A stretch of 32,476 bases of DNA from assembly GCF_001426435.1 (NCBI RefSeq), contig NZ_LMER01000001.1:74308-106783 (forward strand). The letters are read 5' to 3'. The DNA is from Angustibacter sp. Root456 (lineage in GTDB: Bacteria > Actinomycetota > Actinomycetes > Actinomycetales > Angustibacteraceae). Positions 25,522 through 32,476 of this stretch are shown here, one piece after another; position 1 is the stretch's first letter; each line of letters starts with the position of its first letter. Below the pieces are notes generated by a model. The model had not been told where the DNA came from, searched no databases, and was given only the letters and a program-made list of their open reading frames with translations. The position numbers and the translations under genes were made by a program.

Positions 25522-25526
25522 GCTCG

Positions 25527-25599
25527 TAGCCCCGACGGGATTCGAACCCGCGCTACCGCCTTGAGAGGGCGGCGTGCTAGGCCGCTACACAACGGGGCC
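25527..25599 (-). tRNA. tRNA-Glu(CTC)
   Basis: 73 nt. The anticodon stem-loop is CCGCC-CTCTCAA-GGCGG, giving CTC; the T arm GCGGGTTCGAATCCCGT is perfect. The acceptor GGCCCCG pairs with CGGGGCT (first pair is G-U), with A as discriminator. CCA is not encoded. Confidence 0.95.
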
Positions 25600-25650
25600 C
25601 TAGCTGGTGTTGCGTGAAGGATCTTACCTGCTCTCGCAGGAACATCCTCG

Positions 25651-25722
25651 CTGGGGTACCAGGACTCGAACCTAGACTAACTGAACCAGAATCAGTCGTG
25701 CTGCCAATTACACCATACCCCA
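25651..25722 (-). tRNA. tRNA-Gln(CTG)
   Basis: 72 nt. The acceptor is TGGGGTA/TACCCCA; the anticodon stem-loop is ACTGA-TTCTGGT-TCAGT, giving CTG; the T loop has GGTTCGAGTCC. CCA is not encoded. It lies 51 nt upstream of tRNA-Glu on the same strand, likely in the same transcript. Confidence 0.95.
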
Positions 25723-28852: not shown

Positions 28853-29785
28853 GTGACCGCTCCGACCACCGCTCCCCCGCGCGTGCTGCGCGAGCGCGAG
28901 TGGCAGGCGCTCGAGGCGGCCCACCAGGCGCAGGTCGATGCCTGGACGACCGGGCACCTCGACCGGCGACGCCGTCGCGAGAAGCACCCGGTCGAGGACT
29001 TCCTGTTCACCTACTACTCGCACCGGCCGGCGCAGCTGCGGCGGTGGCACCCCGGCGCTGGCGTGGTCCTGCTGGGTGACGCGGCGCTCGAGCGGCTCGG
29101 CTGGCGCTTCTACACGGAGGTGGACGCCGGGGCCGCCGGCTCGGGCGTCGCGGTCGACGTCGCCGGGTTCCTGGCCGAGCGCGGCGCGACGGTCGACTTC
29201 GTCACCGGCCTGCTCGCCGCCACTGCGTCGCGCCCGGCGCAGCTCGGCTGCTTCGGCCTGCACGAGTGGGCGATGGTCTACCGGCTGCGCGAGGGCGAGC
29301 AGCGGCACGAGGACTGGCCGCTGCGCCTGGAGCCCGCGGGCACCGACGCGGTCGTGGAGGCGCACCCTGTGCGGTGCACGCACTTCGACGCGTTCCGCTT
29401 CTTCACCGAGCCAGCGCGTCCGCTCAACGCTCACCAGCCCACGCGTGAGGCGCAGGTGGCGCTCGAGCAGCCGGGCTGCCTGCACGCGACGATGGATCTT
29501 TACAAGTGGACGAGCAAACTCGTTCCCGCACTTCCCTCCTCGCTCATAGCCGCGTGTTTCCAACTGGCCCGAGACGCCAGAGAAGTGGACATGCGGGCCT
29601 CCCCCTACGACCTGCGCAGTCTTGGTGTCAGTCCCATCCATGTCGAGACTGCAGCTGGACGGGCTGAGTACGTACGACTACAACGTGATCTCGCAATCCG
29701 CGGGCAGCGTCTGCGATCAGCGATCGTCAGGTTGTGCCGACCGCTCACAGCGAGCCGCTCCCGGCGGAGGAGCGGGGGGCAATGA
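28853..29785 (+). CDS. 3-methyladenine DNA glycosylase-like protein with replaced 3' end
   Basis: A 310-residue protein of the actinobacterial family annotated as 3-methyladenine DNA glycosylase: REKHPVEDFLFTYYSHRPAQL, LGCFGLHEWAMVYR, THFDAFRFFTEPARPLN, then GCLHATMDLYKW, DMRASPYDLRSLG and VETAAGRAEYV. The family start and end are both present. At the ATGGATCTTTAC codons (about 29491) codon use switches from near-all G/C third positions to mixed, although the protein still follows the family. The last ~13 residues (LTASRSRRRSGGQ) look non-native. GTG 28853 with -10 TAGCCT 6 nt upstream. I infer that the 3' ~290 bp came with an integrated element. Confidence 0.85.
   Translation: MTAPTTAPPRVLREREWQALEAAHQAQVDAWTTGHLDRRRRREKHPVEDFLFTYYSHRPAQLRRWHPGAGVVLLGDAALERLGWRFYTEVDAGAAGSGVAVDVAGFLAERGATVDFVTGLLAATASRPAQLGCFGLHEWAMVYRLREGEQRHEDWPLRLEPAGTDAVVEAHPVRCTHFDAFRFFTEPARPLNAHQPTREAQVALEQPGCLHATMDLYKWTSKLVPALPSSLIAACFQLARDAREVDMRASPYDLRSLGVSPIHVETAAGRAEYVRLQRDLAIRGQRLRSAIVRLCRPLTASRSRRRSGGQ
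29480..29505 (+). mobile_element. Probable attL: left junction of an integrated island
   Basis: The compositional break lies within this stretch of the glycosylase gene (around CTGCACGCGACGATGGATC). As a simple measure, 29041-29060 onward to 29100 has 48 G/C of 60, while 30061-30120 has 32 of 60. All genes to the right share the lower G+C. The right end and integrase are outside the window, so the site is inferred, not proven. Confidence 0.5.
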
Positions 29786-31943: not shown

Positions 31944-32393
31944 CTACCAATACATCGCGATGAACTCGAGCTCCAATACCGGCGAATCCCGCACAGGCGC
32001 TCCCCCGCCCTCCTGGCTTGTCGACGAAGCCGCGGACGCTGCCGCACTGCACCATGCGCGTTGACGCAGCACGCCGACGGTGTCGTGATCTCGTTCCATA
32101 TCCGCGTGCGTCGCGTAGAACTCATCAGCGACTGCATTCAGGGCCGTCAGCCTGCGCTCAAGCGTGTCGCCCTCTACCAGCGAGGAAAGGAGACCGGGCG
32201 GCAGAGGTGTCGGCTCGACTCCGTGGTGCAGCGACAACTCCATGTGGAGATTCATGCCAGCGACCACAGCGGGTGACGTCCGCTCGACTTCCACCGGACC
32301 CTCGTCAGTTACCTTCTTGAGCTCATCCACGGCCGCAAGGAGACCGCTTGCTGCCGACGGGACGACTCGTCGAAACGTGTCGATCATCTTCAC
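31944..32393 (-). CDS. Hypothetical protein, island gene
   Basis: A 149-residue protein that I do not recognise. Codon use fits coding in the same mixed-G+C style as the ParA-SIR2 pair, and it is convergent with it. Helical, Leu/Val-rich (SGLLAAVDELKKV, LHMELSLHHGVE, RLTALNAVADEFYATHADMERDHD), no membrane segment or known motif. The GTG at 32393 has GGGACA upstream; an ATG two codons in is an alternative. Strand choice: an overlapping plus-strand frame gives an Arg-rich protein and is rejected. Confidence that it is a gene is moderate. Confidence 0.5.
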   Translation of the reverse strand: MKMIDTFRRVVPSAASGLLAAVDELKKVTDEGPVEVERTSPAVVAGMNLHMELSLHHGVEPTPLPPGLLSSLVEGDTLERRLTALNAVADEFYATHADMERDHDTVGVLRQRAWCSAAASAASSTSQEGGGAPVRDSPVLELEFIAMYW

Positions 32394-32476
32394 GGGCGTC
32401 CATTGTCCCTGCAGACCACTCCGACCGATGCGACCTAAGACGTCGAACTCTGAATCTGCATGTAGGATTCGGCGGG

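Follow-up and report, generated by a model that had tools for sequence, protein, structure and literature searches.

The islet described here resembles several known kinds of mobile element. Cis-mobilizable elements (CIMEs), as defined in PMC5704250, retain attL and attR, lack genes for integration and transfer after decay from a larger element, and occupy a gene end that serves as a target for other elements too. A dinucleotide core marks serine integrases in PMC10083194, a paper on large serine recombinases (LSRs), where elements in protein genes may share one target gene among distantly related LSRs and the targets are called disrupted. The Dehalococcoides ssrA islands and SCC, as presented in PMC3146451, combine serine recombinases and accessory cargo with insertion at a conserved single-copy gene whose end is repeated.

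We analysed a window, meaning the whole stretch of 32,476 nucleotides of Angustibacter sp. Root456 (G000:C1:74308-106783), together with the sequence that continues it. Positions to its right are given on locus L030, where a position equals the window position minus 25693, or as window-equivalents. Our main reading, which we hold with a probability of roughly 85%, is that a 5.27-kb element integrated site-specifically into a conserved actinobacterial gene, with the GA of a single Asp codon (ATG-GAy) as its insertion point, probably through the action of an LSR. The initial annotation had proposed an island integrated in the 3′ part of a DNA glycosylase gene, supplying its own copy of the gene's 3′ end. 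That model holds, save for the integrase that it expected, which was not found, and the 'DNA glycosylase' label, which is unsupported.

A conserved gene with a foreign 3′ end

The target gene (window 28853-29785) is a single open frame of 310 codons whose codon choice changes abruptly along its length. Through codon 214, the third position is G or C in 201 of 214 codons, and beyond it in 61 of 96, a count that starts at 29495 (Fisher p = 7e-11). A change-point scan of GC3 placed the best break between codons 214 and 215, at window 29495, and none of 2000 codon shuffles matched its likelihood ratio. The shift in codon choice that had been suspected near 29491 is therefore real and lies 4 bp from that position, and the reading frame and the family similarity do run on across it, as had also been noted. 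G+C drops from ~73% to ~61% at the break. The lower G+C to the right, which had been taken to mark everything on that side, is bounded: it spans 5.27 kb from window 29495, and values of 69-75% return behind L030:9075 (window-equivalent 34768). Genes for tRNA-Glu and tRNA-Gln are found at window 25526-25722, 3.8 kb left of the site; the islet junctions are not at them.

Whole-protein search detected relatives of the target gene in 299 of the 396 order genomes, 22 of which were re-examined. The predicted structure of the protein has a pLDDT of 94.2. Its sequence matched 0 Pfam and 0 NCBIfam families at E ≤ 0.001, and nothing among the PDB sequences below E 0.48 or by profile. The model likewise gave no match to PDB folds at E ≤ 0.001; the best fold comparison (Z 5.3) was to helical bundles, and VIA-align placed no glycosylase among the 50 matches listed, with which a glycosylase-like fold would still be compatible. 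The label '3-methyladenine DNA glycosylase' comes only from the name of one record of a relative. Assignment to DNA repair finds no support in family or PDB sequence comparison and no clear fold match. The suggestion that a repair gene had been used as an unusual integration target is likewise unsupported. We treat the product as a conserved protein without assigned function.

The detached native end and the rebuilt empty site

A search of the genome with the target protein returned a second, C-terminal-only match (aa 213-300, 55% identity, E 6.7e-27; Table 1). This is the partial copy of the native 3′ end that the initial annotation had predicted: it is 5′-truncated and stands 5.27 kb to the right, before aroQ. 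Its GC3 (81/87) is host-like (p = 0.80 against the 5′ part), and it is identical to the element-borne end at 48 of 87 aligned residues. What we take by eye to be aroQ starts 31 bp behind the fragment and is followed by a gene for a presumably dinB-like polymerase, and G+C behind the fragment is at host level. When the host flanks are joined, they form a stop-free frame of 301 aa. The islet itself extends from window 29495 to window-equivalent 34767 (5.27 kb). The second copy, the host-like GC3 of the fragment and the rebuilt frame all support an island that lies inside a protein gene and carries its own copy of the 3′ end. With a host gene that is rebuilt on joining the flanks and two junctions at one point, the islet has these hallmarks of a site-specific island.

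Table 1. Features of the target gene, the islet and a related prophage-like element (window positions unless a locus is named)
Feature	Position	Strand	Remarks
Native 5′ part of target gene	28853..29494	+	214 codons, the last ATG; host codon usage
Left junction attL: putative 2-bp crossover dinucleotide GA	29495..29496	+	14/14 elements, GC3 change point, dyad centre
Element-borne replacement 3′ end of target gene, including stop codon	29497..29785	+	
ParA-like ATPase, 335 aa	29939..30946	+	PF13614 8.3e-25
SIR2-like protein, 290 aa	30943..31815	+	PF13289 5.3e-25; PADLOC ThsA model 1.9e-19
DUF6414 protein, C-terminal part in window	31944..32476	-	PF19952 1e-31
DUF6414 gene, full	L030:6251-7525, to window-equivalent 33218	-	one undetermined base
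IetA-like AAA ATPase gene	L030:7522-8967	-	IetA model similarity 1.9e-24
Native 3′ fragment, 5′-truncated	G000:C1:109069-109332 = L030:9075-9338 = window-equivalent 34768-35031		5.27 kb downstream
G211 prophage-like element	L091:2368-17999 (G211:C1), also L089, L090		

A segment flanked by two copies of the same 3′ end could also have arisen by tandem duplication of that end, followed by insertion of unrelated DNA, and one other carrier, G347, has two rather similar copies (73/85). In the window's genome, however, the copies share 55% identity, with a sharp difference in GC3, and the breakpoint is common to five independent carriers in genus g37 (see below). We consider a duplication very improbable.

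Close relatives are few, some of the genomes are drafts, and the sole congener compared was G001. It has no second, detached match to the target protein. Its gene end agrees with the element-borne copy at 60 of 93 positions and with the native fragment at 49 of 87, and groups with the element-borne copy (100/98); C-terminal alignment comparisons use plus-strand rows and L028 only. Close relatives with the same low-GC 3′ end and no island had been named as evidence against integration, and G001 touches that point in part: it has a similar end and no detached copy, and its end too may be element-derived, as an older, worn insertion. With the congener's end nearer the element-borne copy and no fragment behind it, 'native' in the window's genus rests on composition and position. 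The distance between the target gene and aroQ in G001 is 1.46 kb (L032:9805-11262), which holds Arr-like, SnoaL-like and VOC-like genes (named by eye) where the window's species has islet and fragment.

Recurrent insertion at one dinucleotide

Beyond the evidence from this locus (both junctions, foreign end, native fragment and rebuilt empty site), 13 other genomes have insertions at the same point. Searches with a C-terminal profile covered the class (profile A1, 10 rows; 394 genomes, 204 with a match), the f8 family (221 genomes, 189 with a match, 7 with two copies), f17 (186 genomes, 171 with a match, 4 with more than one copy) and f13 (24 genomes, 23 with a match); these searches overlap with one another and with the whole-protein search of the order, and their counts are not additive. 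Both junctions were readable in 14 elements, that of the window and those of the 13 other genomes, which carry other cargo. Not counted are G1078 and G332, whose fragments are damaged, G071, with its fragment on a different contig, and G713, in which the gene is divided between contig ends. The C-terminal gene fragment of G071 (G071:C9, L092:5412-5876) lies in what by eye is an apparent metal ABC transporter cluster, on a contig that differs from that of the intact gene.

The identical run that contains the GA of the Asp codon measures 2-12 bp across the 14 elements and 2 bp in that of the window. The Asp is conserved, so homology alone would partly account for the common GA. Since this makes sharing of GA weak on its own, all dinucleotides from -6 to +22 were compared, and GA was the sole one common to both junctions in 14/14 elements. 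The junctions agree at 2-11 of 15 positions upstream of GA and at 8-14 of 15 downstream, as in homologous coding ends. Taken alone, the window's element also has a second common run, TACAAGTGG, starting 4 bp right of GA; the GC3 change point at 29495 favours GA over TACAAGTGG there. The open frame through the new end is kept in 12 of the 14 elements, and the gene is cut short in G211 and G349.

Such islets are uncommon, given that none of 80 named loci of the target gene had a second copy within a flank of ≤ 10 kb. The presence of aroQ behind the target gene, at 1 of 81 loci, is uninformative. IMG/VR gave 23 pattern matches with the C-terminal profile, none of them a relative, and phage records searched with the native fragment of G291 gave no match. 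We found no account of the integration site in the open-licence literature (without supplements), and the site may already be in print.

The origin of the two gene ends can be followed in genus g37, for which trees were built from 40 of 56 listed single-copy genomes and five islet carriers (G291, G823, G833, G781 and G347). The five carriers stand in five places on the tree of the 5′ part, with 5 changes forced by its starred branches. In the tree of 3′ ends (about 86 columns, weakly resolved), the right fragments G823_R and G833_R group with G777 (99/93) and G829 (99/86), respectively; G291_R falls in a clade with G786, G807 and G773 (98/87); and G781_R groups with G780 (98/92), where the 5′-part tree placed G781 with G772. 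In four of the five carriers, by these trees, the detached fragment is native and the replacement end looks foreign. G347 is ambiguous as to which end is native: neither end is resolved in the 3′-end tree, and the related G784 is matched more closely by the left end (71/85) than by the right fragment (65/86). The left ends of G833, G291 and G823 cluster (93/84) with that of G781 apart, and a wider tree clusters all four (96/87). GC3 is 0.77-0.89 in the left ends and 0.95-0.99 in the right fragments; single-copy genes of the genus range from 0.88 to 1.00 (mean 0.96, n=40), and three of the five left ends lie below that range.

Defence cargo often swaps via conserved flanks, and homologous exchange of chromosomal flanks between strains could have moved the islet. 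G+C is near that of the host in two islets, G347 and G1079 (0.70). Between G291 and G823, the DNA similarity of the left ends is 77.9%, no greater than that of the 5′ parts (78.7%; fragment 81.0%, apeA 86.9%), and in protein the figures are 81.6% for the left ends and 75.0% for the 5′ parts. Exchange of flanks would, however, give variable breakpoints, whereas both breakpoints here fall at a single point; GC3 is host-like in the 5′ part as well as in the fragment behind GA; and G823_R, G833_R, G291_R and G781_R group with relatives. These observations make movement by flank recombination improbable.

Recombinases and attachment sites

The integrase expected in the island was not found: profile searches of the genome gave no PF07508 or PF00589 match in the islet, and tblastn with five LSRs gave nothing there at E ≤ 1. 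In this respect the islet departs from a site-specific island that encodes its own integrase. Elsewhere in the genome PF07508 has two matches, on C14 and C16 and none on C1, and PF00589 has matches on C3, C14 and C18. The two PF07508 matches would be candidates for an LSR acting in trans, and no link between them and the islet site was found; the C14 LSR is 41-45% identical to the LSR of G470. An LSR is not seen in 11 of the 14 elements. PF07508 had no match at E ≤ 0.001 in G291, G823, G833, G347, G923 and G001, six of the 15 genomes searched, some of which are drafts. The PF07508 and PF00589 searches left out G349 and G550, and tblastn left out G349, so that the absence of an LSR in G349 is judged from its ORF list and three Pfam scans.

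The three remaining elements, in G211, G470 and G841, have an LSR gene (PF00239 + PF07508, phrog_95) directly inside the right junction, beside the native fragment, and their LSRs are 31-39% identical. G470 has 48 kb between its gene-end copies, with terminase, head and tail genes. A gene of this prophage ~4.5 kb inside the left end (L096:6765-8549) resembles GajA/OLD-type ATPases. The island behind the target gene in G841 measures 21 kb and contains a type I restriction system besides the LSR. The G841 gene L099:1034-2110 holds the attB region twice in frame (EQPGCLHANMDL twice), as if it bore the scar of an earlier insertion. The G211 element has phage-type replication genes, and its ends are joined head to tail at C1:11129-11141, as a tandem or a circle in the assembly, which exposes attP. 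This attP equals attR up to +4 and attL down to -3, and the agreement confines the exchange to ATGGACCT.

The exchange point of the window's islet is that of the LSR-bearing elements (GA in 14/14). With a tyrosine recombinase, one would expect the required identical overlap to be longer. That LSR-bearing elements insert here too leads us to infer an LSR as the catalyst, a step that stands apart from the junctions and gene ends observed directly. The attP arms of G211 form an imperfect palindrome (21/27 positions) centred on GA. Those of G470 form a 17/27 dyad with the same centre, its P′ arm within the replacement coding sequence, and each of the two dyads matches at 11/12 of positions 12-23. 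Arm pairs taken across elements (n=156) score 8.2 on average (SD 2.6, maximum 17; maximum 8 at positions 12-23), so that the G470 total ties with the best chance pair, and the focus on positions 12-23 came only once G470 had been seen. The dyad scores 6/27 in the P/P′ arms of the window's islet, 6 to 11 of 27 in most other LSR-less islets, 15 in G969, and 10/27 in the LSR island of G841.

The islets could instead be decayed CIME-like remnants, which entered as full LSR elements and later lost the recombinase gene while attL and attR were kept; the sole difference from our main reading is how the recombinase came to be missing. All three LSR elements have their recombinase gene at the attR end, a position from which it could be lost by deletion. 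The dyad is missing in most LSR-less islets, the G349 islet contains a transposase gene and that of G969 an IS3-like pair (by eye), and the definition of CIMEs given in PMC5704250 fits. Against decay, tblastn detected no LSR trace better than E 0.09 across 12 islet sequences; the right junctions are exact, though loss of the adjacent gene would often remove the junction too; and G291 and G823 have compact ApeA islets, both without an LSR. We regard decay as a real possibility, at somewhat less than even odds.

Under site-specific integration as we propose it, an LSR would join the attP of the element to the attB of the gene at GA, and the native 3′ end would be left detached in front of aroQ. 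The target gene stays whole because the element end supplies its last 96 codons in diverged form, and selection may retain those elements in which the P′ arm codes for a functional end of the gene. As no recombinase was found in the islet, either an LSR moved it in trans or the islet lost its own. The exact right junctions and the compact form favour action in trans; the lacking dyads, together with the absence of PF07508 matches in G291, G823, G833, G347 and G923, leave the choice between trans action and loss undecided.

Islet cargo

Four genes accompany the replacement gene end in the islet and form two pairs: the ParA-like and SIR2-like genes overlap by 4 bp, as do the IetA-like AAA ATPase and DUF6414 genes. 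A SIR2 relative (E ≤ 1e-15) occurs in 4 of the other 326 genomes of the order, and in three of these four it is adjoined by a ParA relative. The ParA-SIR2 pair is also present on Salmonella plasmid records, and the one inspected again showed the 4-bp overlap. DUF6414 relatives (E ≤ 1e-8) occur in 3 of the other 326 genomes, each time with an AAA relative directly upstream. Rare and scattered occurrence combined with conserved pairing is the pattern expected of mobile defence systems. From its families, pairing and company, the cargo is most likely anti-phage defence.

Thoeris consists of the SIR2 effector ThsA beside the TIR-domain protein ThsB, and IetAS of the AAA ATPase IetA beside the subtilisin-like IetS. 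The SIR2 protein of the islet resembles ThsA models, but its partner is a ParA-like ATPase rather than a TIR protein, and none of the four islet genes has a TIR match. Similarly, the AAA ATPase resembles IetA but is paired with DUF6414 and not with a subtilase. In the open-licence literature we found no account of DUF6414 or of an anti-phage SIR2-ParA pair.

Cargo at the same site in other genomes is varied. The islets of G291 and G823, which are compact and without an LSR, encode ApeA and HEPN domains; these domains liken them to ApeA defence proteins, from which they differ in that PADLOC gave no match for the ApeA-like proteins of either islet. The genes of G781 and G923 and a 256-codon ORF of G291 are without family. 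G969 has a Pfam match to a toxin-like domain at 0.0026, below that domain's cut-off. The G347 islet (L087:5020-7459) encodes a PnuC-like NMN transporter and an NrtR-like NUDIX regulator, and defence genes are not universal among the islets.

We tentatively propose that these islets belong to a family of non-autonomous, recombinase-free defence cassettes in Actinomycetota, which would spread via phage LSRs at the same GA. Each would combine one or two defence operons with a conserved gene's end of foreign origin, and the cargo would include two uncharacterised two-gene defence systems, ParA-SIR2 and AAA-DUF6414. Elements that borrow Xer recombinases are the counterpart of cassettes that would borrow LSRs. 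The integration hotspot is defined to about a dinucleotide and is common to prophages, a restriction island and tiny defence islets across Actinomycetota. The recombinase-less islets make it testable whether a phage serine recombinase can move a host's defence genes. The hotspot also offers a route to new defence systems: it yielded two conserved gene pairs here, and there are ApeA-like or uncharacterised genes in other islets. Its natural att sites could become serine-integrase tools in these genera.

Comparison with known systems

Pseudo-SCC can be named as a comparison beside SCC and the Dehalococcoides ssrA islands. Among the closest known systems are CIMEs as PMC5704250 describes them: attL and attR are kept and genes for integration and transfer were not found, at a gene end that serves other elements too. 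Unlike CIMEs so described, the islets are very small (~1.7-5.3 kb in the window, G291, G823, G781, G833, G923 and G347), gave no sign of decay from a larger element (no remnant, though decay may have occurred), keep company with serine and not tyrosine recombinases, and bring their own gene end. With the LSR elements in protein genes, as treated in PMC10083194, they share the core dinucleotide and the use of one target gene by distantly related LSRs, here 31-39% identical. The targets there are called disrupted, whereas an open frame is kept here in 12/14 elements, and 11/14 are without an LSR seen. The Dehalococcoides ssrA islands and SCC of PMC3146451 are alike in their serine recombinases, conserved single-copy gene, repeated end and accessory cargo; here, by contrast, the target gene is another one, the LSR is single if present, and the islets are much smaller.
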